Of a stretch of 64,000 nt of DNA, positions 730 to 42,145 are shown in pieces. Location: NCBI GenBank assembly GCA_000830295.1, contig CP010425.1, positions 99,927-163,926 of the forward strand, written 5' to 3'. The notes under the pieces are model-generated. The model was not told the DNA's origin, did not search any database, and saw nothing but the letters and a program-made list of their open reading frames with translations. Positions within the stretch are counted from its first letter, which is position 1. Each line of letters begins with the position of its first letter. This stretch comes from an archaeon GW2011_AR15. GTDB lineage: Archaea; Nanobdellota; Nanobdellia; Woesearchaeales; GW2011-AR15. The translations under genes were made by a program, and so were the position numbers.

Positions 730-828
730 GACGGGAATTCCTTCAGCAATGATTCTGTTTCAGTAGAGAACAACATCTGGTTCCTTGTTGAGAACAATTA
801 TTCCAACGGAGGCAATTATTCTGTAAAT

Positions 829-3305: not shown

Positions 3306-3330
3306 GCGAATCTTCCAAATAGTCATTAAA

Positions 3331-3732: not shown

Positions 3733-3745
3733 ATTAATATACTGA

Positions 3746-22186: not shown

Positions 22187-22774
22187 TTATTCACCTGGAG
22201 AGGCATAGTCTATGCCGAAAGAATCATTGTCAATAGCAATGATACCCGTTATGGAATAAGGGCCCTGAAGGCCGTCTATCGGCCTGTTATTGGTATATGG
22301 ATAGTCATATAGATTTAAAAAAGTTGATATGTCCGCCACAGTTATTATCTCGCCTTCTTTTACAGGAAAGTATTCCAGCTGCACTTCCGCCCCTGTTATT
22401 ACCGGCCTGTCTCCAAGGTAGAGAAAAGTATCATAACTATCTATATCGCTTTGTCCGGACTCGCGCGCGATAATCCTGGTAAGCCTGAAATTGTATCCCC
22501 TGCTTGATTGGTCTGTAAACATAAGAGGATAATCCACACTTATGACTACATAATTTCCGCTTTCCCTGTTGCTATCAAGTTTTGATGCCAGGGAATCTGA
22601 ATCTCCGACAATAAGGGAAATCTGGCTGCTCAGTATGCCTGAGCCTCCGGCCTCTATTGTTGCCCGGACATCTGTATCGGATTCTACATAACCCGGTGTA
22701 CAGGCTCCCAAGACAAAAGCTCCTCCCAGTATGACCGGCAACATATATTTTTTCACTATTGTGTCTAAACCCAT
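22187..22774 (-). CDS. lipoprotein, family B (copy 4 of 4)
   Basis: This is a 195-residue predicted lipoprotein. The signal VKKYMLPVILGGAFVLGAC ends in a lipobox. The family core has four shared blocks: [QV]VDYP, ITRI[VI]A.[EQ]SG..D...Y.TFLYLGDRP, LEYFPVKEG and GPYSITGIIAID, ending YASPGE. It is the last gene of the long leftward operon and lies 2 nt after copy 3, with GGTGA of the previous codons serving as ribosome-binding site. Function is unknown; it is predicted to be outside the cytoplasm, tethered by lipid. Confidence 0.7.
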   Translation of the reverse strand: MGLDTIVKKYMLPVILGGAFVLGACTPGYVESDTDVRATIEAGGSGILSSQISLIVGDSDSLASKLDSNRESGNYVVISVDYPLMFTDQSSRGYNFRLTRIIARESGQSDIDSYDTFLYLGDRPVITGAEVQLEYFPVKEGEIITVADISTFLNLYDYPYTNNRPIDGLQGPYSITGIIAIDNDSFGIDYASPGE

Positions 22775-22776
22775 TT

Positions 22777-23376
22777 TTATTCACCTGGCGAAATATACTC
22801 TATGGCAGGAAGGCCGTTTTCAATTGCAATAATGCCAGTTATTGAGTAAGGCCCATGGAACCCCTCTATAACCCTGTTAAGGCCATAAGATGAGGAAAAC
22901 ATGAAATCTGTAATATCATCTTCTGTTATAAGCTGGCCCTCTTTTACAGGAAAATACTCAAGCCTGACTTTTGTCCCTTCAATCAGCGGCCTGTTTCCCA
23001 GATATAGGAAGGTCTCATAATTCTCCACATCAGTAAACCCTGACTGAATGGCAACTATCCTTGTTATGTTTATATCATACGTCGCACCTTCCTCAAATGT
23101 TTCTTCCAGTAATAGAGACGGATAGTCTACTCTTACTATGTTATATGTTCCGCTTTGTTTTTCTGTTTCCAGTTTTGGAATAAGGGAGGCTGACGGTCCG
23201 GTAAAAAAAGTAAGCTCGCTTCCGAATATTGCTTCTCCGCCTGCTTCTGTTGTTGCCTGGGCCTCGGCATCAAACCTTCCTGCTGCATCCGGGCTGGGAC
23301 CGCAGGACACCATAAAAAGCCCTAATCCTAAAGTTATTGGAAGAGTATATTTTTTTATTATGCTGCTTAAACTCAT
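22777..23376 (-). CDS. lipoprotein, family B (copy 3 of 4)
   Basis: This is 199 residues from the ATG (MSLSSIIKKY), preceded by GGTGA, rather than the GTG at 23385. The lipobox is LFMVSC. The conserved blocks ITRIVAIQSGFTDVENYETF, LYLGNRP, LEYFPVKEG and GFHGPYSITGIIAI are present, and the end is EYISPGE. It is most similar to the copy at 23378. Ser/Gly and acidic residues after the lipid-anchored Cys form a short linker. No enzymatic motif is seen. Confidence 0.7.
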   Translation of the reverse strand: MSLSSIIKKYTLPITLGLGLFMVSCGPSPDAAGRFDAEAQATTEAGGEAIFGSELTFFTGPSASLIPKLETEKQSGTYNIVRVDYPSLLLEETFEEGATYDINITRIVAIQSGFTDVENYETFLYLGNRPLIEGTKVRLEYFPVKEGQLITEDDITDFMFSSSYGLNRVIEGFHGPYSITGIIAIENGLPAIEYISPGE

Positions 23377-23377
23377 T

Positions 23378-23962
23378 TCATTCACCTGGTGATATGTATT
23401 CTATTCCAGAAACGCCTTCATTATAAGCCACTATCCCTGTTATTGAATACGGGCCGTGGAATCCCTCTATTACCCTATACACACTGACACTCTCCTGCTC
23501 TCCAAGGACCGACATGATATCATCATTTGTTATTGCGTTCCCAGGTATCACTGGGTAGTATGTAATCCTTATGCGGCCGCCTTCCATTATCGGCCTATCT
23601 CCGAAATACAGAAAAGTCTCATAGTTCTCCACATCTGTTAATCCGGACTGAAGAGCAACTATCCTTGTTATTCTTATATCATAGCCCTCCTCGCCATCAT
23701 CGTACATTATCGTCGGGTAGTCTACCTGAATGACTGTATATTCCCCTCTTACGGTTTCAGGCTCTATTTTGTCAGTCAAAGATTCAGAATTTTCCGCTAT
23801 GAAAGTAAGATTATCCTGGAATACCGCTTTTCCTCCTGCATCTACTGTTGCCTGCGCAACTTCATCCTGTTCAGGAGTTATAGGCGCGCAGCCTCCGGCA
23901 GCAAGAGCCGCCCCTAATGTGACTGGTAATATGTATTGTCTTAGTATTCTGGTTAAACTCAT
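23378..23962 (-). CDS. lipoprotein, family B (copy 2 of 4)
   Basis: This is 194 residues from the ATG in GGTGAATGAAATG. The lipobox is LAAGGC. It shares the family blocks QVDYPTIM, ITRIVALQSGLTDVENYETF, LYFGDRP, YYPVIPG and GFHGPYSITGIVAY. The tail is EYISPGE. Its stop is within the ribosome-binding site and start of the next gene, so translation of the row is coupled. Confidence 0.7.
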   Translation of the reverse strand: MSLTRILRQYILPVTLGAALAAGGCAPITPEQDEVAQATVDAGGKAVFQDNLTFIAENSESLTDKIEPETVRGEYTVIQVDYPTIMYDDGEEGYDIRITRIVALQSGLTDVENYETFLYFGDRPIMEGGRIRITYYPVIPGNAITNDDIMSVLGEQESVSVYRVIEGFHGPYSITGIVAYNEGVSGIEYISPGE

Positions 23963-23963
23963 T

Positions 23964-24572
23964 TCATTCACCTGGTGAGATGTATTCTATGCCTGGGCCA
24001 TCTGAATCTATCCCGATTATCCCGGTTATTGCAGAATCGCTGAATCCTTCTATGACACGATCAGTCCCAACATAAGAGCCGCTGCTTATCAAAGAAGCTA
24101 CGTTATTGTTTGTTATAACCTGGCCGGGCTTCACAGGATAATATTCCAGCCTTGCCTGGGAGCCCTCGATTACCGGCTTGTCCCCAAGGTAAAGGAAAGT
24201 AACATAATTCTCCATATCCGTAAATCCCTTTTCCAGTGCAACTATCCTTGTAATTGAAATGTTCAGGGTTCCGTAAGAATCATCAAACATTATAATAGGG
24301 TGGTCAACAGCAATAATCGTGTAGAGCCCGGTTTCTGTTTCAGTCTCCAGCTTGTCTGTCAGCGTTGCTGAGTTTTCAACAATGTAAACTAAGTTAGTCT
24401 GCAGTATAATCTCTGCCTCTCCTCCTACTTCTGCTGTTTCTGTTGCTGCCTGCTCTGTTCCCTGAGGATCGTAGTTATCATAATATCCTGCGGGCCCGCA
24501 GCCTCCAATTATCAGTCCTGCGCCCAGTGCAACCGGCAGAGCATATTTTTTTATTATTTTTGCTAGACTCAT
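23964..24572 (-). CDS. lipoprotein, family B (copy 1 of 4)
   Basis: This is 202 residues with the signal IIKKYALPVALGAGLIIGGC and lipobox IGGC. A Thr/Glu-rich linker follows. The family core reads VDHPIIMF, ITRIVALEKGFTDMENYVTF, LYLGDKP, LEYYPVKPG and SAITGIIGID. The start overlaps the stop of the last family A gene (ATGA, 24569-24572). It is the first of four adjacent family B genes; within-family divergence is high, so the duplications are not recent. Confidence 0.7.
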   Translation of the reverse strand: MSLAKIIKKYALPVALGAGLIIGGCGPAGYYDNYDPQGTEQAATETAEVGGEAEIILQTNLVYIVENSATLTDKLETETETGLYTIIAVDHPIIMFDDSYGTLNISITRIVALEKGFTDMENYVTFLYLGDKPVIEGSQARLEYYPVKPGQVITNNNVASLISSGSYVGTDRVIEGFSDSAITGIIGIDSDGPGIEYISPGE

Positions 24573-25192
24573 TCTAAATCACCTGATGAAACAAAATCAA
24601 CGGCATTCAGCTCTATTACACCGTCTGTATGTCCGTCAGGAGCAGAGCTTTGAATAAGGAAGTCCATCCTAACATCGTAACTCATATAATGGTCTGGTAT
24701 GAAAATATCTGTAATGTATGATAGCATATTATTCAGGAGGAGGGCACTCTCATTCATTTCCCAGTACCTTCTTATAACAATCTCCTGCCCTATTGGGAAT
24801 CTTCTTTCTGTAGGGTAGATGAAGTAGTACATGCTACCATCTATATCCCTCTTCACAGTCAGCCATGTAAACGGCCTCTGTGTTACTTTCTCTCCGTAAT
24901 CACCGATGGTGTAGCCAAAGTACGTGTCTACCACTGTTCCCCTGAGATTCTCAACTGGCTCAGGCTTAAACATGTACTCAAATGAATCGCTTATAGGATA
25001 GTTATATTGTATTCTAAAAGGGCTATTTTCCTGTGATATTGCAAATGTAGGGGCCGGGGTAATCTCTCCGGAAGACGGTGTTGCAGTCCTCTGGATTGTC
25101 AGATCCTCTATATTTTGAGTCCGGGGACCGCAGGCTGCCATTGTTGTCCCAAGCAGCACAAGAGCTGCCAGCCCTTGATATAATCTCTTCAT
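24569..25192 (-). CDS. lipoprotein, family A (copy 6 of 6)
   Basis: This is a 207-residue lipoprotein with lipobox TMAAC. The family A core is VENLRGTVVDTY, RPFTWLTVKRD, YYFIYPTER.FPIGQE, RYWEM, NNMLSYIT and IQSSAPDGHTDGVIELNAV. It ends DFVSSGDLE rather than the usual EYISP-type tail. It starts directly after the TAG of copy 5 (GGGGAATAGATG), so it is translationally coupled. No catalytic motif is recognised; the predicted location is the outer face of the membrane. Confidence 0.7.
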   Translation of the reverse strand: MKRLYQGLAALVLLGTTMAACGPRTQNIEDLTIQRTATPSSGEITPAPTFAISQENSPFRIQYNYPISDSFEYMFKPEPVENLRGTVVDTYFGYTIGDYGEKVTQRPFTWLTVKRDIDGSMYYFIYPTERRFPIGQEIVIRRYWEMNESALLLNNMLSYITDIFIPDHYMSYDVRMDFLIQSSAPDGHTDGVIELNAVDFVSSGDLE

Positions 25193-25813
25193 CTATTCCC
25201 CTCCTCCGACATAATCAACAGCGCTAAGAGTTATGATGCCGTCAACATGGCCGTCCGGAGCTGAGCTTTCTATAAGGAAGTCCATCCATGAACCGTAGGA
25301 TATACTTTCATTTGTCCCGACTTCTGTAATATATGCCAGCATATTGTTGGTAACAACTTTTGCATCCTCCTTTATAGGCCAGTATTCCCTTATTATGATC
25401 TCCTGGCCTAGAGGAAACACCCTTTCAGTCGGGTAGATGAAATAATACAGTTCATTGTCTATATCCCTCTTTACAGTCAGCCAGGTGAAAGGCCTTTGTA
25501 TTCCTATGTCATTATAATAATTCACAACTACAAAACCCGAGTAGCTGTCAATAACTGTCCCCCTGAAATTTTCAACAGGCTCTCTCTCGAGCAGGTATTC
25601 AAAGGAATCTTCGATGTTATACTCGTAACCATCCCTGAACGGATTGTGGTTCTGTGATACGGGAAATGTCGGAACCGGTGTAATCCTGCCGCTGCTCGGA
25701 GTTGGCGTTTTTTCAATTGTCAGGTCAACTATATCCCTCTCTTCTGCTGGACCGCAGGCTGCCATTGTTGCTGCCACGACCAGTGCTGCCAATCCCTGAT
25801 ATACTCTTTTCAT
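25193..25813 (-). CDS. lipoprotein, family A (copy 5 of 6)
   Basis: This is 206 residues from the ATG at 25813 (MKRVYQGLAALVVAATMAACG); an in-frame upstream start at 25831 would overlap the previous gene. The lipobox is TMAAC. The core is VENFRGTVIDSY, RPFTWLTVKRD, YYFIYPTERVFPLGQE, YWPI, NNMLAYIT and IESSAPDGHVDGIITLSAV. The signal is nearly the same as in copy 6, so these two are the closest pair. Confidence 0.7.
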   Translation of the reverse strand: MKRVYQGLAALVVAATMAACGPAEERDIVDLTIEKTPTPSSGRITPVPTFPVSQNHNPFRDGYEYNIEDSFEYLLEREPVENFRGTVIDSYSGFVVVNYYNDIGIQRPFTWLTVKRDIDNELYYFIYPTERVFPLGQEIIIREYWPIKEDAKVVTNNMLAYITEVGTNESISYGSWMDFLIESSAPDGHVDGIITLSAVDYVGGGE

Positions 25814-25814
25814 T

Positions 25815-26507
25815 CTATTCCCCCTCTGCACTAATATATTCCACTGCTCCCAGTTCTATTATGCCGTCAACATGACCATCGGGGGCTGAGCTCTCTATTA
25901 TATAGTCCAGCCCGACATAATAATTTATGCTGCCTTCCTGCTTATCATTGGAAGTGATGTAAACGAGCATGTTATTCATTAATGTAACGCCTTTCCTGAT
26001 TGCCCAGTACTTCTCAATCTTGATCTCTTCTCCCTCAGTAAAAGTCCTTTCTCCGGGATATATAAGATATTCCAGACTGTCATCAACCCTGTCTCTTACA
26101 ACCAGCCATGTAAACGGCCTGGAAACACTGCCATAGTCCCCACCATAATTATATATCATTTCTGCTTTATAGGTCTCGATTATGGTCCCGTAGAAATTTT
26201 CAACAGGTTTTCTTTCAAATATGTCAAATGAGGTCGAAGCATCATACTCAAGTGTGCTTACGGCAAACGGGTTGTCTATCTGCGATATTGATAAAGTCGG
26301 AGTTGGTGTTAGTGTCGGAGTCGGGGTGAATGTCGGTGTGCCTTCAAGTACTGAGTCTATTGTTTCAACTACTGGGGTCGGTTCTTCCTGTATCTCTGTG
26401 TTTCCGCCGAACCCATCTGTAAAATAGTACACTATCCCAACTACAGCAGCAACAGCTGTTCCCAAACCTACAAATAACAGGCAACCATCACTTTCATCAT
26501 AATACAT
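25815..26507 (-). CDS. membrane-anchored family A protein (copy 4 of 6)
   Basis: This is 230 residues. Instead of a lipobox it has an N-terminal membrane helix (CLLFVGLGTAVAAVVGIVYYF) and a Thr-Pro-rich stalk (TPTLTPTPT). The family A core then appears: VENFYGTIIETY, RPFTWLVVRDR, LEYLIYPGER, YWAI, NNMLVYIT and IESSAPDGHVDGIIELGAV. It starts one base after the previous TAG. The rigid TP stalk suggests the core is held away from the membrane. Confidence 0.7.
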   Translation of the reverse strand: MYYDESDGCLLFVGLGTAVAAVVGIVYYFTDGFGGNTEIQEEPTPVVETIDSVLEGTPTFTPTPTLTPTPTLSISQIDNPFAVSTLEYDASTSFDIFERKPVENFYGTIIETYKAEMIYNYGGDYGSVSRPFTWLVVRDRVDDSLEYLIYPGERTFTEGEEIKIEKYWAIRKGVTLMNNMLVYITSNDKQEGSINYYVGLDYIIESSAPDGHVDGIIELGAVEYISAEGE

Positions 26508-26508
26508 C

Positions 26509-27114
26509 CTATTCGCCCTCCGGCCCTATATATTCAACTGCACCCAGTTCTATTATACCGTCAACGTGGCCGTCCGGGGCTGAGCTCTCTATCTGAAAAT
26601 TCATCCTGTCATCATAAGTGAATTCCCCCGGAATATCTGTTATGTATGTAAGCATATTGTTAAGTAATACTGCATCCTCTTTTATTTCCCAGTATCTTGC
26701 TATCCTGACTCTCTGGCCTTCAGGAAAAATTCTTTCAGTAGGGTATATCATGTAATAGAGGTTATTGTCAGTTCCTCTTAGTATTATCCAGCTGAAGGGC
26801 CTCACTGTTCCTTCGTCGCCATAATCACCAACAGAATAACCTAAGTAGCTGTCTATAATTGTCCCCCTCAGCCCTTCAACTGGTTCTTCTTCAAAAAGAT
26901 ATTCAAAAGAGATTTTCTCATTAAAATTATAATTTATTCTGAACGGGTTATTGTCTCTTGAAATCGGGAATCCCGGGCCTTCTGTATAATCTTCGCCTGA
27001 AGGCGTGGCTGTTTCAGTATCCAGGCTGATAACTTCTCCTTGGGAACCTGGTTCGCACGACGCTATGGTTGCAGCCAGAACCAATGCTGCAAGACCCCGA
27101 TATATTCCTTTCAT
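26509..27114 (-). CDS. lipoprotein, family A (copy 3 of 6)
   Basis: This is 201 residues from the ATG at 27114 (MKGIYRGLAALVLAATIASC); the upstream in-frame start at 27159 lies inside the previous gene. The lipobox is TIASC. The core is VEGLRGTIIDSY, RPFSWIILRG, YYMIYPTERIFPEGQ, YWEI, NNMLTYIT and IESSAPDGHVDGIIELGAV, ending EYIGPEGE. Family A therefore alternates lipoproteins with helix-anchored versions. Confidence 0.7.
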   Translation of the reverse strand: MKGIYRGLAALVLAATIASCEPGSQGEVISLDTETATPSGEDYTEGPGFPISRDNNPFRINYNFNEKISFEYLFEEEPVEGLRGTIIDSYLGYSVGDYGDEGTVRPFSWIILRGTDNNLYYMIYPTERIFPEGQRVRIARYWEIKEDAVLLNNMLTYITDIPGEFTYDDRMNFQIESSAPDGHVDGIIELGAVEYIGPEGE

Positions 27115-27115
27115 C

Positions 27116-27820
27116 TTACTTTTCCTCCGGGCTGATGTATTCCACAGCGCCAAGCTCAATTATCCCGTCGACATGGCCATCGGCAGCCGGGCTTTCTATA
27201 GTAAAATCAAGGAGAGTGTAAAAGTCCTCGCTGCCCCTGTTATCCCTGGTGACATATGCAAGCATATTGTTCATCAGTGTTACTCCTTCTTTTATTTCCC
27301 AATATCTCTGTATGTTAACTTCCTGGCCTATTGGGAATATTTTTTCTGCCGGATAGATAAGATAATGTATGCTGCCTATCTGGTCTCTTAAAATCATCCA
27401 GCTGAACGGCCGCAATGTCCCAGAGTCATATTCCACAGCCATATACCCAAGATAGCTGTCAACTACTGTTCCCTTGAGATTTTCTGAGGGATATCTTTCA
27501 AATATAAGGTCGAATGACTCATCCACATTATACTCAAGCGGGCTCTTGAAAGGGTTGTTCTCCCATGATATTGCCAAGGTGGGCGTCGGGGTCAATGTAG
27601 GGGTGGATATTAGTGTAGGTGTCGGCATAGCCGTATATTCAGGTGTGCCTAATGCTATGGACTCAAGAGTCTGTACTGCTGCTGTCTCTTCCTGCTTCTG
27701 CTGCTGTTCTGCTGCTGCCAGCTCTGAATCAAATGCCCCTTTGCACATATAAATCATCGCTATCCCTAGAACTATATACAATGCATTGTCCCATAGCCAT
27801 TCGCCAACACTTCTTACCAC
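27116..27820 (-). CDS. membrane-anchored family A protein (copy 2 of 6)
   Basis: Read from a GTG at 27820, one base after the previous stop and at ribosome-binding distance from its GAGGGCG, it is 234 residues. An in-frame start at 27859 would give 247. It has an N-terminal helix (NALYIVLGIAMIYMC), a Gln/Glu-rich coil, then a TP stalk (PTLTPTPTLA). The core is SENLKGTVVDSY, RPFSWMILRD, HYLIYPAEKIFPIGQE, YWEI, NNMLAYVT and IESPAADGHVDGIIELGAV. It ends EYISPEEK. Confidence 0.68.
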   Translation of the reverse strand: MVRSVGEWLWDNALYIVLGIAMIYMCKGAFDSELAAAEQQQKQEETAAVQTLESIALGTPEYTAMPTPTLISTPTLTPTPTLAISWENNPFKSPLEYNVDESFDLIFERYPSENLKGTVVDSYLGYMAVEYDSGTLRPFSWMILRDQIGSIHYLIYPAEKIFPIGQEVNIQRYWEIKEGVTLMNNMLAYVTRDNRGSEDFYTLLDFTIESPAADGHVDGIIELGAVEYISPEEK

Positions 27821-27821
27821 C

Positions 27822-28514
27822 TTATTCGCCCTCTGGTGTAACATATTCGATTCCGCCAAGCTCTATGATGCCGTCTGTATGTCCGTCAGGGGCAGGGCTC
27901 TCTATACGGAATACTGTTTCAGCATAATAGTAGAGATTTTCTGGGTTGATTGAAATTATATATGCAAGTATATGATTTGTAAGTGCTACATTTTTCTTTA
28001 TCGGCCAGTACCTATCTATTATAACTTCTCCACCCGGAAAAACTCTCTCTGCCGGGTACATCAGGTATTCAAGTGAGTCGTCTTCCCTGTCCCTTACAAC
28101 AAGCCAGGTGAACGGCTTGGCATACATCATCGTATCAAGATAATTTATATAAAGCTGGCCGGGGTAGCTCTCCACTATTGTGCCGTAAAAATTCTCGACT
28201 GGCTCTGCCTCAAATATGCTGAATGAATCTGCAGGGTCGGTCCATGGCTGCGAGAAAGGGTTGTATTCTATTGAAGGAGGCACATCTGCAGGTGTTGGTG
28301 TAGCTGTAGGTTCCGGAGTGTGTGTTGCTGTTGCCTCCTCTAAAACTGTCTCTATTGTTGCTGCTGCAGGTTCAATTGTTGCAGTCGGCTCCTGCTGTGT
28401 TTGCGGCTGGCTGAAAAAAGTATAAATTGTGGCTGTAACTACGCAAATTGCCATAGCGGCTGCAGGCACCAATGGCCAAAGGTTGGAGTTTGAATTACTC
28501 ACCACTACCACCAT
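27822..28514 (-). CDS. membrane-anchored family A protein (copy 1 of 6)
   Basis: This is 230 residues or slightly fewer: the ATG at 28514 overlaps the previous gene by 20 nt, and a GTG at 28502 is also possible. An N-terminal helix (PLVPAAAMAICVVTATIYTFF) is followed by a Thr/Pro/Glu stalk. The core is VENFYGTIVESY, KPFTWLVVRDR, LEYLMYPAERVFPGGE, YWPI and IESPAPDGHTDGIIELGGI, ending EYVTPEGE. It is the first of the ten small envelope genes. Confidence 0.7.
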   Translation of the reverse strand: MVVVVSNSNSNLWPLVPAAAMAICVVTATIYTFFSQPQTQQEPTATIEPAAATIETVLEEATATHTPEPTATPTPADVPPSIEYNPFSQPWTDPADSFSIFEAEPVENFYGTIVESYPGQLYINYLDTMMYAKPFTWLVVRDREDDSLEYLMYPAERVFPGGEVIIDRYWPIKKNVALTNHILAYIISINPENLYYYAETVFRIESPAPDGHTDGIIELGGIEYVTPEGE

Positions 28515-30093
28515 TCACAAACTTTATCCCCGCTTCCCTGCATTCCTTTGCACTGTTTTTTGAAAGCCACTCGTTCACTTCATAATTATACTGGTCGTGG
28601 TAGCTTATTCCTGCTGCAAGTCCTTTTATCATTCCAACCCTTTGTTCATGGGATGACTGCTGCCATTGTTCTATGAAAGGCTGGCCTTTGTGATATGCCC
28701 GTGCAAGCTCTGTCTGCGTGCTCCTGTTTATAATCTCATAGAGCACAGAATCCGCTCTCATAGGAACAATAAGATCAAGCTTTGTCTCCAGAGGAAGGGA
28801 TTTGAAATAGAGCCCCTTGTCTGCCTGGCTCTCATGGCTCAGCGTGTCAAGCACAGTGTAGAAATTCTCTACTTCCTGAGGTATTGCGCTGTTGTGCTCT
28901 TTTATCTGCTTTATCAGCTCAAATGTGTCAATATCCTGCCTGTTTTTCATCTTAAGCTCTTCAAGCTTTTCCTTTCCTCTCTTGAAGGAAAATGTGACGA
29001 GCCCGAAATCATACAGAGTATTGATAACCCTGTCTGTGTCATATCCGTTTACCAGCTTTATGCTCCTGTTCTCGTATGATGCCTCAAGCTTTCCTGAATC
29101 GTCAAAATAGACAAAAAGGAACTTCCTGTTCCTGAACGCATAAAGCTCCTGCCCGTTTCTCCTGAGCTTGATGAAATCCTCCACACTCTCTACAGGGAAC
29201 ACATCAGGAAGCTGTATCCTGTCAAGCTGGCCGTGTATCTCTTTCGGTTTTCTGGAAAGCTCAATCATGCTTTCAAGATATCCTGGCTTCAGTATAAGAT
29301 CCGGATCTTTCTTGACATCATTATATGAATCCTGGATTTTCTTTACCGCATCTACTGTGGCTGCTGCTGTATCAAGCGAAAGCTCCAGCCTGAAAATGCT
29401 TTCCGTGTAGTCTTTGATGTTCAGGAGTATATCCTGCAGGCTGAGCTCTGATATCTCTGTTTTCACTTGCCCGAAAAGCGCTTCTCCGAAGGTTATCTGC
29501 TCTATAAAAGGCGCTGCGGACTTGTTGAGTTTCTTGAGAAGGTTTTTCTTGAATGAGTAGTTTCCTCCGAGTATGTCGCTGTCAAACTGCTTTAAAGACA
29601 CAATTATATAATAATTATTCAGGCCTTCAATATCCGGGTCATGGCCGAGAGCATCTATGAAAAATGATTTCCTTCTTTGTCTCCTGCCGGTTATTGCATG
29701 CACTACATCTGCATATCTTTTTGCCTCCTCTCCTTCGATAGAATAAAGGAGCGGCTGCTTCAGCACAAGCTCTCCGGGATTTACATGCTTTCTTGTCTTT
29801 GAATGTATCTGCAGAAATGTGTCTTTTATCAGCGAAGACATGGATGAATCGCTTGGCAGCTCAACAGGTTCTTCTCTTGGCTGGGGCTCTGAGCGTATCT
29901 CTTCGAAAATAGACTCAAGGAAGTCCGGATTGCTGCTTCTCTCGCGCAGATACTCTTCCAGCATCTGCCTGTGCCTGTCGCTGTCTCCAGTCCTGCTACT
30001 CCCTGTTCTCCTTCTCCTTGGAGTTTCAGATGCCTGTCTTGCTCCTTTCTGAGTGAAACTTGAAAGGATGTCATCTATTTTTTTGTCATCCAT
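28495..30093 (-). CDS. large soluble protein of unknown function in the lipoprotein operon
   Basis: This is 532 residues. The first ~100 are charged and probably disordered (RRRRTGSSRTGDSDRHR). The remainder is mixed alpha/beta without a recognised motif or membrane segment. It overlaps the ATPase gene upstream by 8 nt and the first lipoprotein gene downstream, so it is made together with both. It could be the adaptor between the cytoplasmic ATPase and the envelope proteins. That is inference from position only. Confidence 0.6.
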   Translation of the reverse strand: MDDKKIDDILSSFTQKGARQASETPRRRRTGSSRTGDSDRHRQMLEEYLRERSSNPDFLESIFEEIRSEPQPREEPVELPSDSSMSSLIKDTFLQIHSKTRKHVNPGELVLKQPLLYSIEGEEAKRYADVVHAITGRRQRRKSFFIDALGHDPDIEGLNNYYIIVSLKQFDSDILGGNYSFKKNLLKKLNKSAAPFIEQITFGEALFGQVKTEISELSLQDILLNIKDYTESIFRLELSLDTAAATVDAVKKIQDSYNDVKKDPDLILKPGYLESMIELSRKPKEIHGQLDRIQLPDVFPVESVEDFIKLRRNGQELYAFRNRKFLFVYFDDSGKLEASYENRSIKLVNGYDTDRVINTLYDFGLVTFSFKRGKEKLEELKMKNRQDIDTFELIKQIKEHNSAIPQEVENFYTVLDTLSHESQADKGLYFKSLPLETKLDLIVPMRADSVLYEIINRSTQTELARAYHKGQPFIEQWQQSSHEQRVGMIKGLAAGISYHDQYNYEVNEWLSKNSAKECREAGIKFVNGGSGE

Positions 30094-31768: not shown

Positions 31769-31939
31769 GAAGGTATATAGGTTGTATCTTCTGCTGCCAT
31801 CAACAGGTGGTGTGAGCTGATTGAGATATTCTATTGCGGCACTAAGGTTAAGATGATATTCCTCCTCACTTATCTCGATAGCTGTTTTGCCTGTAATGTC
31901 TTCAAGTTTCTTTGCTGCTACTTTATCGTCTGCGATTTT

Positions 31940-33040: not shown

Positions 33041-33070
33041 GCTTCCCTCCGAAAAAATGAAATAAAAAAA

Positions 33071-34357: not shown

Positions 34358-34400
34358 TTTTTAATTCCCTCCTGTCAATATAATTTCATTCCCCTTTTTT

Positions 34401-34414
34401 AAGTTCCAGAACTT
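34401..34414. promoter_or_regulatory. palindrome in the shared divergent control region
   Basis: AAGTTC-CA-GAACTT lies about 45 nt before the leftward start and next to the leftward TATA-like box (34420-34434). Rightward, TATA-like CTTAAATATTAAC lies near 34472 and a strong GAGGGGGAG site precedes ATG 34553. Both long operons are therefore driven from 34358-34552, and the palindrome is a candidate operator for a shared regulator. Confidence 0.45.
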
Positions 34415-34552
34415 GAAGTCTATATTTAAAGCTTGCGTTGTGTTGTTACGGGCAAGTAGATAGTAATAGAAATGCTTAAATATTAACATTATATCCGGAA
34501 TCTGAATTTAAAACCGCTTAAAAATTTAACAGAGGATGTTGAGGGGGAGACA

Positions 34553-35170
34553 ATGGTAACAAGTAATATTACAGCACCGCAGAACAAGGCAGACTTAAAG
34601 CCGGTAACCGTAAACAGGTATGGAACACTTGATGAGCTTATTAAAATACACAGGGAAGATATAGGTGTGGGAAAGGTTGTTCCTATGCTTCCGTTTGTAT
34701 TCTTCAGAATTGGCTCTGTGAATTCTCCGCCTGATAAGTGGTATTTTGCGCTGTTGAACAGGGACCAGCTAAGGTCTTCAGAGGAAGTAATAGAGAATTA
34801 CAGGAATGGCGGCGATGTTGAAGTGCTTCCTAAGGAAGTGCTTGATTTTACACTGAGCGAGATGCTTGGGAGGCATTTGTTCCCTACACAGGATGTAATG
34901 GCTGATTACAGTGTTAGTTATGATGCTGCCCTGGATGTTGTATACGGAAGAGACGCTGACAAGCCGACAATCAAATCCAATCATGAAGGAAAAAGAATAC
35001 TTTACAGCCTCCAGGATAATCCCTTCGGAGGTAACCAGGTTGAGCTTTCAACACGGGTAAAGGATTGCCTCTCTTATATCACAATAGATGATAAAAATGA
35101 GTCGTCTGTGCACTACGGAGCAATTACTGTTGATATGACATACGCCACTGCAGGCAAAGGCGGTAGGTGA
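34553..35170 (+). CDS. unknown protein ending in Gly-Gly-Arg, candidate modifier
   Basis: This is 205 residues with no signal peptide. The C-terminal half is beta-rich and ends GAITVDMTYATAGKGGR. A Gly-Gly one residue from the end is what a ubiquitin-like modifier precursor would show before trimming. The genes that follow encode an E1-like enzyme and a JAMM-type protein. It has no clear ubiquitin fold by eye and is longer than a single ubiquitin-like domain, so the modifier idea is only inference. It is the first gene of the rightward operon with a strong GAGGGGGAG ribosome-binding site. Confidence 0.55.
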   Translation: MVTSNITAPQNKADLKPVTVNRYGTLDELIKIHREDIGVGKVVPMLPFVFFRIGSVNSPPDKWYFALLNRDQLRSSEEVIENYRNGGDVEVLPKEVLDFTLSEMLGRHLFPTQDVMADYSVSYDAALDVVYGRDADKPTIKSNHEGKRILYSLQDNPFGGNQVELSTRVKDCLSYITIDDKNESSVHYGAITVDMTYATAGKGGR

Positions 35171-35202
35171 GGCTGCAGGCCGAAAGGCTTGGGGGAAAAA
35201 GA

Positions 35203-36513
35203 ATGAATCTTCCGAAGTTCTACTTTTTTAATTTTAGCGGGATTACTATAGTACATAGCGGAAGAATCTACACTGCGAGCAGCCAGGTTTCTGATTTTAC
35301 TGATGAGATAGCAATAGAGAGCCTTGTGGATGCCGGTCCGGAATCCCAGGAAAGGTTTCCGCTTGAACCGCAGGAAACCCTCCTTGGCCTTGAAGCGCTT
35401 TATTTCATACATAATAACAGTGAGATAGGAAAGTGGCAGGCCGAGTATATGAAGAAATTCAACATTGATTCGCTTTCAGATATAGACATGGCCAACAGAA
35501 TTAAGGAATCTAAGCTGCTTGAGTTTATAGTAAAGGAAGTCTTCCCAAGGTTCGTAAGCTCAGGGAGGATAGACATAGAAGGGATGGGGCTAAATGTAAA
35601 AGCGCCCTCTGCAAAGAAAAAAAGCAGCAGAAAGAAAAGGGCTTCAGGAGGAATTGCCGGGACTGTATTTGATATAATTGAGGGAATCGAGAATGAAGGA
35701 TATACACAAAAAGATATCGGTAAAATTGCAAAGGAATTCAGCCTCAAAAGATCTATCCTGCAGTCAGATGTGCTTGGAAACGAGAGCATATGCATAATAG
35801 ATAATGAAGTATATGTGATGAGATCTGCAAAATCAGAAAAGGTCCTGGACGGCATACAAATAACTCTTGGCCCAAAAAAATTCGGGCTTGTGTATTACGG
35901 CTCCCTCAGCACAATTGAAACATCATTCAGCAGTGCGCTTGGAGAGCACCTGAAAAAACAGGCGTTCAAGAACAACCCTGTTATTTTAAGGCAGATTGAA
36001 ATCAGGGATGAACTGCTCAAAGAGATAAAAAATCCGAAATACCAGGAAGCCGGGCTTGGCATTGAGAAAACAGACAAGGACGGCACTTCATACATGATTT
36101 CCATTGATGTTCCTGAATTTGTGAACCTGGGAGAAAGCCAGAATTACTTTTATTTCCCTGCAACAAAAGTCGGCCTTCAGGTGTGGATTCAGGGAGAGGC
36201 GATAAGGCATTCAAAGAAGCCTATTGTAATGGGAAAATACAAGCACCCGTTTGTAGGGGACTGGTCATCAAACAGGGATATATGCACGGATGAATATGAA
36301 TCCAGTTACACTACACCAGAAGAAAGAATTGCAGATTACCTTAATTACGGCAAGAATATCCTGATGTCCGGATACTTCGGCAGCGTGAGGCCAAGGGCGC
36401 TGCTGAACAAGTCCACTTTCCATGAAAGCCAGTTCAGAAAAGTAGACGGCATGAGCAGGGAAGAAATAATCAAGCAATATCCAATCACAAATGTAATAGC
36501 CCAGAGAAGGTGA
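35203..36513 (+). CDS. protein with an E2-like C-terminal region
   Basis: This is 436 residues from ATG 35203, which has GGGGGA at good distance. A GTG at 35167 overlapping the previous stop is the alternative. The middle holds a basic linker (KKKSSRKKRA) and a possible winged helix (YTQKDIGKIAKEFSLKRSIL). Near residues 270-380 the order is: helix (RQIEIRDELLKEIKN), beta strands, then YKHPFV (His348) and RDIC (Cys361), then TTPEERIADYL. Ubiquitin-conjugating enzymes show the same order: helix, strands, HPN, catalytic IC. Cys361 would be the thioester site. The similarity is short and unproven. Confidence 0.55.
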   Translation: MNLPKFYFFNFSGITIVHSGRIYTASSQVSDFTDEIAIESLVDAGPESQERFPLEPQETLLGLEALYFIHNNSEIGKWQAEYMKKFNIDSLSDIDMANRIKESKLLEFIVKEVFPRFVSSGRIDIEGMGLNVKAPSAKKKSSRKKRASGGIAGTVFDIIEGIENEGYTQKDIGKIAKEFSLKRSILQSDVLGNESICIIDNEVYVMRSAKSEKVLDGIQITLGPKKFGLVYYGSLSTIETSFSSALGEHLKKQAFKNNPVILRQIEIRDELLKEIKNPKYQEAGLGIEKTDKDGTSYMISIDVPEFVNLGESQNYFYFPATKVGLQVWIQGEAIRHSKKPIVMGKYKHPFVGDWSSNRDICTDEYESSYTTPEERIADYLNYGKNILMSGYFGSVRPRALLNKSTFHESQFRKVDGMSREEIIKQYPITNVIAQRR

Positions 36514-36519
36514 TAAAAA

Positions 36520-37674
36520 ATGTCCGACCTAGTAAAAAACCTAAAAGCAATTGTCAATGAAGATGTCCATGTCAGTTACAGCCAGCTGACAATCAATCAG
36601 CAGATACTGACAGAGGGCGTTGTCAGAAAAATCTATGCAGTATACAATGTAATCAACAAGATTGAGGGCAGCATGGAGGCCTATTTCCTCCCACTGAGAA
36701 AAGAAGGGGAAAATTTCACAAGGGATATCTTCCTGCCAACCCAGTATGATGCCTCGCATGCCCATGTGCAGGTAGAGCCTGAAGCTCTTCAGGAATTTGA
36801 CAATGACAACCCCTATGGTCTTGTGGTTGACGGATGGATGCATTTCCACCCCGGATACGGCTCTGTCCATCCCTCAGGGACTGACGATGACAATAACAGG
36901 CAGGTGCTAAAGCTTGTTCCGCACAACAAGATTTCGGGTGTCCAGGAAACACTGATGAAAAACCTTGATTATAAAATAAAAGGCGGCAAGGTCATAGTAT
37001 CCGATCTTCTTACAGGAATGGAATACGGAATACCTACAGACCAGCTTACTTCACTGATAAAATCATTTAACGCCCATCACAAAAAGGGCAAGGAAGCCAG
37101 TGATGAGGACATTGCAGGCTTTATGAAAGGCTACTTCAGCGAAAAAGGCCCAGGGCTGAAAGTAATGTCCAGCTACCTGAGGGCAGAGCTGCAGTATGCA
37201 AAGAGCACAATCTTCAACGGGCTTAGCCTTGACCACGTGCTAAATCTTGACGGCACAGAGAAAGGAGGGAGGAGCAGGAACGTGTATTCTGAAGCAATTG
37301 TGCAGAATTACCTCGACGGCAAGCCAAGAGGGGATATGAAGCTCATAGAAAATATTCCTATAAAGGTAATCCAAGTAGAGAATGACGTTGCATTTACCGT
37401 AAAAGAGATTGAGGAGCTTGTAAGAGAAAAAATAGTCAAGCCGAGAAAGAGCGGGTTCTCATATGAAGTACATGAGCCTGTCAGGGAAGAAAAGGAGCCA
37501 AAGAAAGACTATGATGCCCCTGAAAAGCAGGAGAAGGTTGTTGTTGACAGAGGGGATAATTATAGTGGACTGGCAAGATTCCTCTTGTGGCTTGCCAGGC
37601 TGGCCGGCGTAAATATACGGGAGACCACAGAACCTGAGGAAAAAAAGCCAGAGGCAGAAAAGAAAGATGAGTGA
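36520..37674 (+). CDS. JAMM/JAB-type metalloprotease-like protein
   Basis: This is 384 residues. GWMHFHPGYGSVHPSGTDD holds H108-x-H110...S119-x2-D122, the zinc motif of JAB/MPN deubiquitinases. The H-to-S spacing is 8 rather than the usual 7. A following domain of ~200 residues and an acidic, Lys/Glu-rich tail with one amphipathic helix (ARFLLWLARLAGV) are unassigned. JAMM proteins cut isopeptide bonds or trim modifier precursors. Next to an E1-like gene, that is the likely role. Its stop overlaps the E1-like start by 8 nt. Confidence 0.75.
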   Translation: MSDLVKNLKAIVNEDVHVSYSQLTINQQILTEGVVRKIYAVYNVINKIEGSMEAYFLPLRKEGENFTRDIFLPTQYDASHAHVQVEPEALQEFDNDNPYGLVVDGWMHFHPGYGSVHPSGTDDDNNRQVLKLVPHNKISGVQETLMKNLDYKIKGGKVIVSDLLTGMEYGIPTDQLTSLIKSFNAHHKKGKEASDEDIAGFMKGYFSEKGPGLKVMSSYLRAELQYAKSTIFNGLSLDHVLNLDGTEKGGRSRNVYSEAIVQNYLDGKPRGDMKLIENIPIKVIQVENDVAFTVKEIEELVREKIVKPRKSGFSYEVHEPVREEKEPKKDYDAPEKQEKVVVDRGDNYSGLARFLLWLARLAGVNIRETTEPEEKKPEAEKKDE

Positions 37675-39058
37675 TAGGTACTTAAGGCAGATGATTATTG
37701 AAGGATGGGATCAGTCAAAGCTATATAATTCAAGCGTGGCTGTGGTTGGTTCCGGTCCTGTTGCCATCTCAACACTCGTTGCACTGAGTATGCTTGGGGT
37801 CGGGGATATTGATATCTACAGCAACCGCATCTTAAAGCAGTATGACCCGTCTGAATTCCTATATTTCGGGGAAGAGCCGGGAGTCTATAAGGTTGATGCC
37901 CTGGAAAGGATAATGAAAAAAAGCAATCCTGACCTTGAGGGCAATATAACAAACCTGAAAATGGGAGTTACATGGAATTTCCTCAGCGACAGCGAGCTCA
38001 TCCTTATGGACAAAAGTGCAGGAAAAACAAGGTATAACCTTGTTGTAGATGCGACAAATAATCCTTCCATTGAGTCACTTATGCTTCAGTATGGTATCTC
38101 AAGGATGGTTCCTATCATAAATGCCTCTGCAATGGCATACAAAGGCGAGGTGAAAGTAGTGACGCCTGACGGCAAGGAAATCTCCAGAGGAGCACTTTCA
38201 ACTGAATACGCATACAAGCCGCAGGACCCGGTTATGGCAGGCCTTATAGGCGGGCTCGTGGGAGAAGAGGCAAGGAGACTGCTTATGCCGCTGAAAGGCG
38301 AAAGCATAGAAGATATTGATGTCAACCTGAATTTCCTTTCAAGAAAAATAGTAGGGCAGGAAGACGATTATGAGAATCTGAACCCAGACTACAGAAAAAG
38401 TGTGCTTGTTGTGGGTGCAGGCTCATTGGGAGTGAATGTAGTGAGAGAGCTTGTCCAAAGGGGCGTAAAGAAAATATGGCTATATGATGCTGACAGGGTG
38501 GAAGAGTTAAACCTGAACAGGCAGTATGAATATACCCTTGCTGATTCTGTCGGACAGCCAAAGGCACTTATGCTTAAGGAAGTGGCTTCCCAGTACAATC
38601 CAGCAGTTCAGATTATAGCAAAAAACGAGTTCTTTACAGGAGAATTCAAATCCGCTCTTCCCGATGCCATATTCAGGTGCACTGATTCCTTTAAGACGTC
38701 TGCTATGCTCAATGCGACAGCCCACAAATATAATATTCCGCTGTTCTATGCAGCAACCTCCAAGGATGACGGCCAGGCATATGCTGTAATACCCGGAAAA
38801 ACACCCGGGCTTGATGATATCTTCGATGTAAACAAAGCAGCAGAAGAGGAGATTGTGCCCGCCGGCTGCGTTGAAGAGCCTACTCCTTCAGTAGGGACCG
38901 TGAACATGATAATGTCAAGTGCCATGGTCGGACTGTTTGATATATGGTGCGCCGGCGCAGAAGTGCCAAGAGGCTACCTGAATTACAGCAACAAAGAATT
39001 TAACAGATTTTCGTTCGTTGAAACTAATTTTAAAACGGCACAAAATAAAGGGGTATAA
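37667..39058 (+). CDS. E1-like (ThiF/MoeB superfamily) enzyme with two Rossmann domains
   Basis: This is 463 residues. Domain 1 has GSGPVA (28-33) but lacks the rest of the adenylation site, like the inactive half of eukaryotic E1. Domain 2 is complete: GAGSLG (250-255), YDADRVE (D274, D276), NLNRQ (282-286), GQPKA (K299), RCTD (D340), and a Cys401 followed by a PSVG segment where E1/MoeB proteins carry the reactive cysteine. It would adenylate the C-terminal Gly of a ubiquitin-like protein with ATP. It is overlapped by the JAMM-type gene, a classic pairing in prokaryotic ubiquitin-like operons. Confidence 0.88.
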   Translation: MSDRYLRQMIIEGWDQSKLYNSSVAVVGSGPVAISTLVALSMLGVGDIDIYSNRILKQYDPSEFLYFGEEPGVYKVDALERIMKKSNPDLEGNITNLKMGVTWNFLSDSELILMDKSAGKTRYNLVVDATNNPSIESLMLQYGISRMVPIINASAMAYKGEVKVVTPDGKEISRGALSTEYAYKPQDPVMAGLIGGLVGEEARRLLMPLKGESIEDIDVNLNFLSRKIVGQEDDYENLNPDYRKSVLVVGAGSLGVNVVRELVQRGVKKIWLYDADRVEELNLNRQYEYTLADSVGQPKALMLKEVASQYNPAVQIIAKNEFFTGEFKSALPDAIFRCTDSFKTSAMLNATAHKYNIPLFYAATSKDDGQAYAVIPGKTPGLDDIFDVNKAAEEEIVPAGCVEEPTPSVGTVNMIMSSAMVGLFDIWCAGAEVPRGYLNYSNKEFNRFSFVETNFKTAQNKGV

Positions 39059-39063
39059 AGCAT

Positions 39064-39813
39064 ATGGCAGTAAAAACAAAAACCAGCGCAGCAGATGAAA
39101 AGCTTGATAGCCTCCTAGGCTCAATCATGCAGCCTGCTGAAAGGCGCGTGGAAAGACAGGCAGGGGATACAAGCCCCTATCAGGCAATCCTGCCCATGGA
39201 CCTCTACACAACAAGGATACTTTCATCAATGCTTAAGACTCCGGCTGCACAGAAAAACCTGGAGAAAATAAGTGATATTGAAGAATTCTATCAGCTGCTT
39301 CTGGCAGATCTTTTCGTTAGCAATGCTGGAACAGAGGAGTCAAAGAAGAGTATGGAAGAGATAATGATGGATGATTCATCTTCCATATATTCAAAATCAA
39401 AAGATGTTGCAGGAATTTTCTATAAATCACTTCCTGAAGGTGAGGTTGCCGGCCAGGCAGAAAAGCTGAAGCAGGTAATTGGTGAGAATTATATCAATAA
39501 TAACAGGGAAACTATTGAATCCATGCTAAGCAAGGCATATAATACAAAAATTGCAGTAAATAACGCAATTGCAAGAAGGAGCATCATACCCAGATGGATT
39601 TTCCGCATTGCCGCCGCTGCTATCATCGGCGCAGCAGTTTATTTCGGGCTTGCAGAGCATCACCGGCAGCTTGAGTATCAGGCCCAGTACGGCCAGTACG
39701 TAGAAGATACCTATGGTGCCACATTGCCTGACAATGTCTACGATGAAATAATCCCAGATTCAATATACACTACAATACAGGATACAGTGCAGAAGCTGTT
39801 TTCAGGAGAATAG
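39064..39813 (+). CDS. single-helix membrane protein of the rightward operon
   Basis: This is 249 residues. A helical cytoplasmic-looking N-domain of ~175 residues is followed by one membrane helix (IFRIAAAAIIGAAVYFGLA, about 180-200) and a short outside tail of ~50 residues rich in Tyr/Asp. It lies 5 nt after the E1-like gene. The design matches the next, larger gene, so the two may assemble together. No family is recognised. Confidence 0.62.
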   Translation: MAVKTKTSAADEKLDSLLGSIMQPAERRVERQAGDTSPYQAILPMDLYTTRILSSMLKTPAAQKNLEKISDIEEFYQLLLADLFVSNAGTEESKKSMEEIMMDDSSSIYSKSKDVAGIFYKSLPEGEVAGQAEKLKQVIGENYINNNRETIESMLSKAYNTKIAVNNAIARRSIIPRWIFRIAAAAIIGAAVYFGLAEHHRQLEYQAQYGQYVEDTYGATLPDNVYDEIIPDSIYTTIQDTVQKLFSGE

Positions 39814-39814
39814 A

Positions 39815-41578
39815 ATGGCAGAAGAAAAAAGGACGCGGGGGGTTGTAAATCTTGCAAGAGTGGTCCAGAAATCAAGGGAGAGGTATGCTCCAAAGGATGC
39901 TTCTAAAGATCTTGCCAAAGATCCCAGATGGATGGTGTTTCTCAACAGGATAGGGCAAAGTAAAAACAGTGAACTTGCCCAGCAGCTGAAATCAGCCGCA
40001 ACTGCAGAAGAAGCTACTGATGTCCTGATAAAAGCCTATATGTCTTCTTCAAGCCTTTATCCTGTCCAGAATATTGTGAATTCAGATGCAAAGCCGGGAG
40101 AGATGATTTCTGACCTTGCGGCAATAGTCTCAGGAAAGCTGAGCAAAAGTGACCTGAAGTCTCTTGAGCATTCTGTTGTTACAGATATTACTTCAAAACT
40201 GCAGAAGGAGCATCATGAGAGCATTGACCAGAAAATAAAGGCGGGAAGCTATTCAGACAATATAAGAAGAGAAACCAGGCAGGGCATATTCAGAGGATTA
40301 AAAAGGACCATAAGCACTGCTGTAATATTTGCCCTTCTTGGCACAGCAGCATATGTCTATTTCAACGTGAGTTTTGAAGGGAGAAGGGAGGAGGCCATAC
40401 GGCCTGTATATGAGCAGGTTATGTCAGAGGCCATCGCTGCTGAAAATGTCGTGGTCCCGATGTCCAGCCTGATAAATCTTGGAGTGGATTATTCTCCTTT
40501 AACCTTCCTGCCGTATCAGGAGCTGCCGTCCTCTGCAGCTGTTGCAGAAAGGTATCTGGCAGTAACCGAGATGCCGGAAACTGGCGAAACCCCGGAGATA
40601 ACCCTGGAGCTTCTTAATGCAAAGGTAGATGCTTTTGCAGCAATCGTGTCTGAATATCCCGGAAGCCTTGAAGCCTATAAATCAGATTACCAGGTATATA
40701 TACTAAAGTCATTCAACCAGAGCATCTACACCCAGGAGGAGGTAATAGGGAAAATAAACGACATTGTGCTCTCCTATCCCAATGCTGAATCGCTTTCTGC
40801 AAAAAGGCTCGTTGAGCTGACTGAAGACTATTATACTATCCAGCTAAGGAAAACAGGAAGTGAGGCATCTGCCAGGGCAGAAACAATAGACTGGATAAAT
40901 GAAACTATAAATGAGAATTCAGGAAGCCACATCTCCTACAAACTGAGCTATATACTCGCCAATATAATGTCAGGAAACACTGAGTTCGTATCACCTGATG
41001 ATACAGGCACAATTTCCCTGCTTGATGAGATTGCCTCAGAAGCGGATAATGAAGAAGTTATTGCCCTTTATCTTGCAGGCATGAGAGAGAGCCCAATGGC
41101 TGCGTCTCTCGTGCATTATTCAGCTGCACAGCTATACCTTGACGGGATTGACCTGAATAACCCGGAGTCCTATGCCCTTCTTGAGAGCCCAATAGATGTA
41201 GCAGGCTATCTGGAAGAGAGCATTGCTCTTGCAGAGGAATATGGATCTGCTGATGCGAGCTGGCTTCCGGAGGCATATTACAGCCTTGCTCTTGTAGCAA
41301 GGAACATGGGGCAGTTTGATTATGCAACAGAAACACTGAATGCACTGATACAGAAATATTCAGACAGCTCTCCGGTTGTATCCGGCAATGCCCAAAGCGT
41401 GATAGACAATATGGATCAGGCCAGGGTTGAAAGAGAGCAGGCAAGACAACAGGAGATAGAAAACCAGTTCTACACCTGGTATGAGCAGTCAAAGGACGAT
41501 GCAGGCATAACTGATATAAAAGACGAGATAATAAGCGTGCTAAATACTGTCGGCGGCTGGTTTGGCTCTGGGGAGTGA
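39815..41578 (+). CDS. single-helix membrane protein with a large TPR-like outer domain
   Basis: This is 587 residues. The basic N-domain is ~165 residues, the membrane helix is TAVIFALLGTAAYVYF (about 172-190), and the rest (~390 residues) is helical with TPR-like pairs (AEAYYSLALVARNMGQFDYATETLNALIQKY) and ends GWFGSGE. It starts one base after the preceding stop. By topology it would link cytoplasmic components to the lipoproteins made by the divergent operon. Function is inferred from position. Confidence 0.65.
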   Translation: MAEEKRTRGVVNLARVVQKSRERYAPKDASKDLAKDPRWMVFLNRIGQSKNSELAQQLKSAATAEEATDVLIKAYMSSSSLYPVQNIVNSDAKPGEMISDLAAIVSGKLSKSDLKSLEHSVVTDITSKLQKEHHESIDQKIKAGSYSDNIRRETRQGIFRGLKRTISTAVIFALLGTAAYVYFNVSFEGRREEAIRPVYEQVMSEAIAAENVVVPMSSLINLGVDYSPLTFLPYQELPSSAAVAERYLAVTEMPETGETPEITLELLNAKVDAFAAIVSEYPGSLEAYKSDYQVYILKSFNQSIYTQEEVIGKINDIVLSYPNAESLSAKRLVELTEDYYTIQLRKTGSEASARAETIDWINETINENSGSHISYKLSYILANIMSGNTEFVSPDDTGTISLLDEIASEADNEEVIALYLAGMRESPMAASLVHYSAAQLYLDGIDLNNPESYALLESPIDVAGYLEESIALAEEYGSADASWLPEAYYSLALVARNMGQFDYATETLNALIQKYSDSSPVVSGNAQSVIDNMDQARVEREQARQQEIENQFYTWYEQSKDDAGITDIKDEIISVLNTVGGWFGSGE

Positions 41579-41583
41579 GTGGA

Positions 41584-41982
41584 ATGAGCACAATAGAGGA
41601 ATGCCTTCCTTCCACAAAATACATACTTGATTTCCAGAAAAACAGTCTTGACCCCGGAATTGAGATTAAGCTGGAAGTTCTTATCCCTGCAGAATACAGG
41701 AGAGATGAAAAACTCCACGGCCTGATGCTTGATCATAACTGCCCTATTGACAAGATAATAAGGTCGCAGGGATTCTTAAAACCTAACAGGATAATATACG
41801 AAGGCTCTTCTGATGAATTTGGAGACTACAGCCTTATTTTGAATGTCAGGGGGTCTGAGTTCTGGGAAACGCAAAAAACATACATAAGCCTGAAAATATC
41901 AAAAGGAGACGCTGAGACCGGCAAGCTGACAGGACTTATTGAAGTAGTCAAGGAATATGTGGATTCATACGGGAGAAAATAA
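41584..41982 (+). CDS. small unknown protein, last gene of the rightward operon
   Basis: This is 132 residues from ATG 41584, with a purine-rich GGGGAGTGAGTGG before it; a GTG at 41575 overlaps the previous stop. It is soluble and beta-rich in the middle (IEIKLEVLIPAEY, YSLILNVRGSEF) with a helical C-terminus. It could be a small beta-fold adaptor or modifier, but no Gly-Gly end is present (it ends YGRK). The next 90 bp hold a tRNA-derived repeat. Confidence 0.55.
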   Translation: MSTIEECLPSTKYILDFQKNSLDPGIEIKLEVLIPAEYRRDEKLHGLMLDHNCPIDKIIRSQGFLKPNRIIYEGSSDEFGDYSLILNVRGSEFWETQKTYISLKISKGDAETGKLTGLIEVVKEYVDSYGRK

Positions 41983-41984
41983 CT

Positions 41985-42000
41985 ATGGGCCCGACCAGAT
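41985..42000. repeat. direct repeat of the tRNA-Val 3' end (att-like)
   Basis: ATGGGCCCGACCAGAT (41985-42000) recurs exactly at 42073-42088, where it is the 3' end of tRNA-Val(GAC) on the minus strand. Integrated elements duplicate tRNA 3' ends in this way. Only 88 bp separate the copies, so this is at most a scar or one arm of a site. Confidence 0.55.
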
Positions 42001-42059: not shown

Positions 42060-42073
42060 GACAAAAGAAAAAA

Positions 42074-42145
42074 TGGGCCCGACCAGATTCGAACTGGTGA
42101 TCTTCCGCGAGTCAAGCGGATGTCATGCCTCTAGACCACGAGCCC
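42074..42145 (-). tRNA. tRNA-Val(GAC)
   Basis: The acceptor stem is GGGCTCG/CGGGCCC (one G-T pair) with discriminator A. D-arm is GTC...GAC, anticodon stem TCCGC/GCGGA, loop TTGACTC giving anticodon GAC, and T-arm ACCAG-TTCGAAT-CTGGT. There is no intron and no encoded CCA. It converges with the rightward operon, and its 3' end is duplicated at 41985-42000. Confidence 0.92.

Follow-up and report, generated by a model that had tools for sequence, protein, structure and literature searches.

The window analysed here is a stretch of 64,000 nucleotides (G000:C1:99927-163926; feature positions below are those of the window) from the DPANN archaeon GW2011_AR15, whose genome is a single contig of 1.16 Mb, and it contains a locus whose genes point to a ubiquitin-like conjugation system associated with the cell envelope. 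Two operons, with seven genes running rightward and 14 leftward, diverge from a shared control region at 34358-34552 that lies between both start codons and has a Shine-Dalgarno-like site ahead of each. An earlier interpretation made from the DNA letters (the sequence-only reading) had proposed this layout, and all 21 open reading frames (ORFs) lie where it had placed them, closely packed and often overlapping. In the two operons the one Pfam match above threshold is ThiF, in 37667-39058, with AAA, TPR and DUF6638 matched below threshold, and searches of the window proteins with NCBIfam and PADLOC add nothing specific; the ubiquitin-like modifier (Ubl), the E2, the AAA ATPase and the other components are described here from genes and predicted structures.

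The rightward operon carries the conjugation core. The E1 (37667-39058, plus strand) has an N-terminal inactive and a C-terminal active adenylation domain and a putative thioester cysteine, Cys401, and its proposed double-ThiF nature agrees with the Pfam match (ThiF, 1.8e-50) and with profile matches to MoeB (4e-38) and yeast Uba1 (2e-37). Residues R7, D276, N282, Q286, K299, D340 and C401 do not vary among 11 relatives, 10 of which also keep R285; only about 18 residues separate PGLDD from Cys401. The E2-like conjugating enzyme (35203-36513, plus strand), the start of which is, as a correction, best placed at 35203 where its homologues begin, has a putative catalytic Cys361 and an HP motif at residues 348-349. 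Cys361 is the sole residue invariant across 53 relatives (53/53), with P349 present in 50 and H348 in 47. No Pfam model matches this family and its sequence profile finds nothing in the PDB, but the AlphaFold2 (AF2) model has a predicted local distance difference test score (pLDDT) of 83, and all 50 matches listed by Foldseek against the PDB are E2s (Rad6, UbcH5, Ubc13) or E2 complexes, with a best probability of 0.85 and modest E-values of 0.05-0.3 for one domain within a longer protein. The JAMM peptidase (36520-37674, plus strand) has the zinc motif residues E53, H108, H110, S119 and D122, conserved in 44-46 of 46 relatives, and the best PDB match of its profile is the Caldiarchaeum Rpn11 (3.7e-9); Prok-JAB is matched by 30 of the 46 relatives, though not by the window protein itself. 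Conservation in relatives thus bears out the E1 catalytic residues and the zinc motif that had been read directly from the sequence, while of the model searches suggested for E1, E2 and JAB only the first succeeds on the window's own proteins.

Directly upstream of the E2 gene lies the candidate Ubl (34553-35170, plus strand), a protein of 205 amino acids with the C-terminus ATAGKGGR and, like its family, with no match to a Pfam model. Most relatives also have a small gene directly upstream of the E2, and of the genes in this Ubl position 26 of 48 encode a GG within the last 28 residues, compared with 29 of 366 small genes used as controls (Fisher p = 1.5e-13, a guide only because the rows are related). 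Beyond the GG, tails range in length from 0 to 19 residues, the pattern expected of a precursor processed by a peptidase. From its position and C-terminal glycines we infer that 34553 is the Ubl. Its GGR ending is not a read-through of a Shine-Dalgarno sequence, because a separate site, 33 bases on, belongs to the E2 start at 35203. A Pup-like tag, considered for many window proteins on account of their C-terminal GE or GGE, was rejected: these endings are the Shine-Dalgarno sequences GGTGA and GGAG read through the ends of overlapping or abutting genes.

Sequence or structure comparison, then, shows three proteins encoded together whose active sites are intact: the E1, the JAMM peptidase and a protein of E2 fold. 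Set against the features that define a ubiquitin-like E1-E2-JAB system, the locus supplies an E1 with an adenylation site and a putative thioester cysteine, an E2 fold with a catalytic cysteine in the structural model, a JAMM motif with an intact metal site and a candidate modifier that would end in glycine after the predicted processing.

E1 homologues were surveyed in 353 genomes of the window's order and also in other archaea and in bacteria, and gene calling on 65 sampled E1 loci yielded the E2 family, the JAMM family and the small upstream genes. Double-ThiF homologues are present in about 50 of the 353 genomes (a hand count) and also in Njordarchaeota, Desulfobacteraceae, Myxococcota and other bacteria. 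The E1, E2 and JAMM genes lie on one strand in 53 of the 65 loci, 44 of which have a gene in the Ubl position, and cassette-bearing loci are mostly from DPANN archaea with some from Njordarchaeota and bacteria; one Njordarchaeota metagenome-assembled genome has a Ubl-E2-JAMM-E1 cassette at L087:1260-5334. In an E1 tree built with a quick method the window groups with two relatives, G248 (98) and G296 (97). The window's own genome also has a second, paralogous pair of double-ThiF E1 and JAMM genes (L005:12748-15507; G000:C1:1112747-1115506) that lacks both E2 and Ubl and lies some 2 kb away from a gene resembling 20S proteasome alpha.

The link to the membrane begins within the rightward operon, where the E1 gene is followed by TM1 (39064-39813, plus strand) and TM2 (39815-41578, plus strand), which, as a further correction, are homologous to each other. 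TM1 is a single-pass membrane protein with a transmembrane helix near residue 178 and a net charge of +4 before and -3 after it, predicting an N-in orientation; TM2 is likewise single-pass (helix near residue 169, charge +5/-2) with a predicted outside C-terminal domain bearing a TPR-like repeat (Pfam TPR_6, 6.6e-5, below the cut-off). TM2 homologues are found at the two nearest E1 loci, those of G248 (3e-9) and G296 (1e-9), so that every member of this E1 clade of three carries TM2; TM1 is shared by the window and G248, where it adjoins the E1, with weaker homologues elsewhere. In the G296 operon an 879-residue lipoprotein-like gene lies between E1 and TM2. The last rightward gene (41584-41982, plus strand) encodes a small protein of unknown function for which no homologue was found.

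Leftward, the first four genes make up an AAA module that is conserved, with its gene order, at six other loci. They encode a coiled-coil protein (33071-34357, minus strand), which has the same position in G248 and in the six stand-alone modules, a protein of unknown function (31940-33040, minus strand; 1.7e-15 with a profile from the six other loci), an AAA ATPase (30086-31768, minus strand; 6.4e-44 with the corresponding profile and 6e-17 for the G248 copy) and a DUF6638-like protein (28495-30093, minus strand; Pfam DUF6638 9e-5, below the cut-off, with 2.6e-46 to the other modules and 5e-39 to the G248 copy). A coiled-coil profile from the six stand-alone modules detects the protein of G248 (6.5e-8) and, on its own, misses that of the window. 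The divergent arrangement recurs in G248, where minus-strand genes for the coiled-coil protein, the 31940 counterpart, the AAA and the DUF6638 protein face plus-strand Ubl, E2, JAMM, E1, TM1 and TM2 genes; 3′ of its TM2 are five membrane proteins in tandem, each some 200 residues long (L187:12381-15533) and unrelated to the window lipoproteins. Moreover, the AAA module is over-represented in E1-bearing genomes even when unlinked: a double-ThiF E1 is found in 9 of 11 near-complete genomes with a DUF6638 gene versus 16 of 169 without (hand count), with a p value of 2e-7 that takes no account of phylogeny and genome size. The check proposed by the sequence-only reading, that the two operons should occur together in other genomes, thus came out in its favour.

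The remaining ten leftward genes encode, as had been described, lipoproteins or membrane-anchored proteins, each with a lipobox or N-terminal anchor, and they fall into two paralogous families. Family A comprises six tandem paralogues (24569-28514, minus strand) and family B four (22187-24572, minus strand), the two being weakly related (hhalign 9e-5). Searching with family A by itself returned this genome only, and relatives elsewhere were found after a synteny lead, in an array on G296:C39 (hhalign 7e-8; best hmmsearch 3.7e-8 among 1176 proteins) that accounts for all of the best hmmsearch matches outside the window. That array consists of small proteins with a lipobox or an N-terminal anchor, encoded in a long row (at least 27 ORFs) on one strand beside a DUF6638 gene; the run (L256:1-19501 and L220) also adjoins five tandem two-helix membrane proteins. 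A wider search places the lipoprotein family in four of 353 genomes, in two of them as single genes, one such lone gene being in a genome without this E1. The association of the array with DUF6638 is thus recurrent, though not obligatory.

We propose that the locus is a prokaryotic ubiquitin-like conjugation system working on the inside of the cytoplasmic membrane, with a probability of roughly 0.6, and it is best read as a variant that is new among such systems and coupled to the envelope. The JAMM enzyme would trim 34553 so that it ends in glycine and afterwards strip it from targets; the E1 would adenylate it and hand it via Cys401 to Cys361 of the E2, which would attach it to lysines. TM1 and TM2 would keep the machinery at the membrane, and an AAA ring, acting together with the coiled-coil protein and the DUF6638-like protein, may extract or unfold tagged proteins. 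The outer domain of TM2 and the lipoprotein array would face outside, where they probably bind or report surface partners, and the lipoproteins may be sensory or adhesive; DPANN archaea often live attached to other cells. The thioester relay, JAMM maturation and recycling, TM1/TM2 docking, AAA extraction and the lipoprotein role are all predicted steps. A more ambitious scheme is one of transmembrane ubiquitin-like signalling, with the surface lipoprotein array and the membrane proteins that bear TPRs controlling both AAA extraction and conjugation by the cytosolic E1-E2-JAMM machinery; it must be regarded as tentative and somewhat doubtful. What has survived of the sequence-only reading is the cassette of E1, E2, JAMM and Ubl-position gene together with a recurrent membrane link; its suggestion that the lipoproteins are conjugation targets is unlikely because of topology, the lipobox placing them outside the membrane and away from cytosolic ATP and the E1.

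Several observations count against this proposal. Fold comparison, which placed the 35203 product among E2 structures, was uninformative as to the beta-grasp fold expected of a modifier in 34553, for which the AF2 model is of low confidence (pLDDT 59) and yielded no meaningful match; profile searches between 34553 and ubiquitin gave no match either, and its pairwise similarity to its positional counterparts is not above that of shuffled sequences. The six other AAA modules lie apart from ubiquitin-like genes, and the neglect of phylogeny and genome size weakens the E1/DUF6638 association. No lipoproteins follow DUF6638 in G248, and the E1 and lipoprotein loci of G296 are on different contigs.

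One alternative is that the system tags proteins for proteolysis, the AAA unfolding conjugates for a 20S proteasome and the membrane genes encoding substrates or accessories. A proteasomal-type AAA lies directly upstream of Ubl-E2-JAB-E1 in G049 and G271 (OB domain 2e-5 in G049), and in G334 a Ubl-JAB-E1 operon has a related AAA gene ahead of it, which suggests a proteolytic version elsewhere, and the window's own genome has the 20S alpha-like gene. However, no proteasomal OB domain (a coiled coil and OB before the AAA) was found in the window AAA, nor by Pfam in its genome, and for this locus we consider the explanation possible but rather doubtful. Proteasomal-type AAA genes stand directly upstream of the Ubl gene at L038:10156-11649, L158:13606-15090 and L161:13289-14770, a possible direct link from ubiquitin-like proteins to the proteasome in DPANN archaea.

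It is also conceivable that a genuine ubiquitin-like operon merely sits beside an unrelated AAA and lipoprotein operon. The frequent occurrence of the AAA module without adjacent ubiquitin-like genes, and the scarcity of the lipoprotein family, would fit such an accident, but the same divergent arrangement in G248, the co-occurrence of E1 and AAA module when unlinked and the presence of TM2 within the ubiquitin-like operon of all three clade members make it unlikely.

Quite improbable, in our view, is a Bil-like anti-viral defence island whose Ubl is conjugated to viral particles. The distribution is patchy, the locus being missing from the two genomes of the same genus, and the E1 weakly matches PADLOC E1-E2 models, but that match is limited to the ThiF fold and, to our knowledge, a lipoprotein array is no part of Bil, Bub or CBASS. 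The locus also adjoins a tRNA-Val with a 16-bp direct repeat of the tRNA end (41985-42000 and 42073-42088, beside the last rightward gene), which resembles an integration scar, although no left-hand copy was found. On the other side the locus is flanked by two paralogous AAA ATPases (20110-21907) and a short tyrosine-recombinase-like protein (19616-20113); because these are kept near each other in same-genus genomes without the E1, the acquired segment probably begins at about 22.1 kb. A viral or plasmid origin was also considered and rejected, viral contigs containing no close full-length relative and plasmids giving partial ThiF matches only. Farther left, pieces of an RHS/YD-repeat-like protein occur in several frames at 361-4708. 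Finally, a sulfur-carrier (ThiF/MoeB) pathway, which the MoeB-like active half of the E1 might suggest, is very improbable given that ThiS adjoins a different, single ThiF (G000:C1:460372-461296) and that E2 and JAMM genes accompany this E1; the sequence-only reading had named a sulfur-carrier or MoeB type of E1 as a refuting outcome, and this did not arise.

A search of a collection of open-access papers found no report of this system. Among the closest parallels is BilABCD, the bacterial ISG15-like conjugation system, in which one operon encodes the Ubl, the E2, a JAB that acts in pre-processing and an E1 that pairs an inactive with an active adenylation domain (PMC11354881); the window shares this operon plan but its E1 lacks the Cys domain of about 80 residues, its E2 has no CEHH after Cys361, which is instead preceded by HP, and it adds the AAA module, TM proteins and lipoproteins. 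The four-part cassette is also seen in neighbourhoods 6a-6f of Iyer 2006 (PMC1779556), as described in part of that paper; these are bacterial, with E2-like proteins lacking the classical histidine, and the same part mentions no lipoprotein. The Ub-E1-E2-Rpn11-RING cluster of Caldiarchaeum subterraneum follows a similar archaeal logic, and its CsRpn11 is the best PDB match noted above, but Pfam finds no RING in the 20 window proteins scanned, recognises neither the E2 nor the Ubl, and the membrane array is a further difference. SAMP/UbaA of Haloferax likewise combines archaeal Ubl conjugation with a JAMM enzyme, but with a single ThiF, paired with a Ubl of MoaD/ThiS type, and no E2 in place of the double ThiF and E2 of the window. 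Pup-Mpa/ARC resembles those relatives with a proteasomal-type AAA beside the Ubl, but differs from the window in the OB domain and in having a Pup ligase in place of E1/E2 chemistry.

There are hints, therefore, of a ubiquitin-like pathway that is tied to the cell envelope and not solely to the cell interior. We know of no earlier prokaryotic ubiquitin-like conjugation system linked to the envelope, and this would be the first. If the proposal is correct, E1-E2-type ubiquitin-like conjugation would extend to many DPANN families and include E2 and modifier families that Pfam does not yet cover. It would also serve as a natural experiment for tracing how, before eukaryotes, ubiquitin pathways came to be coupled to membranes and to AAA motors.
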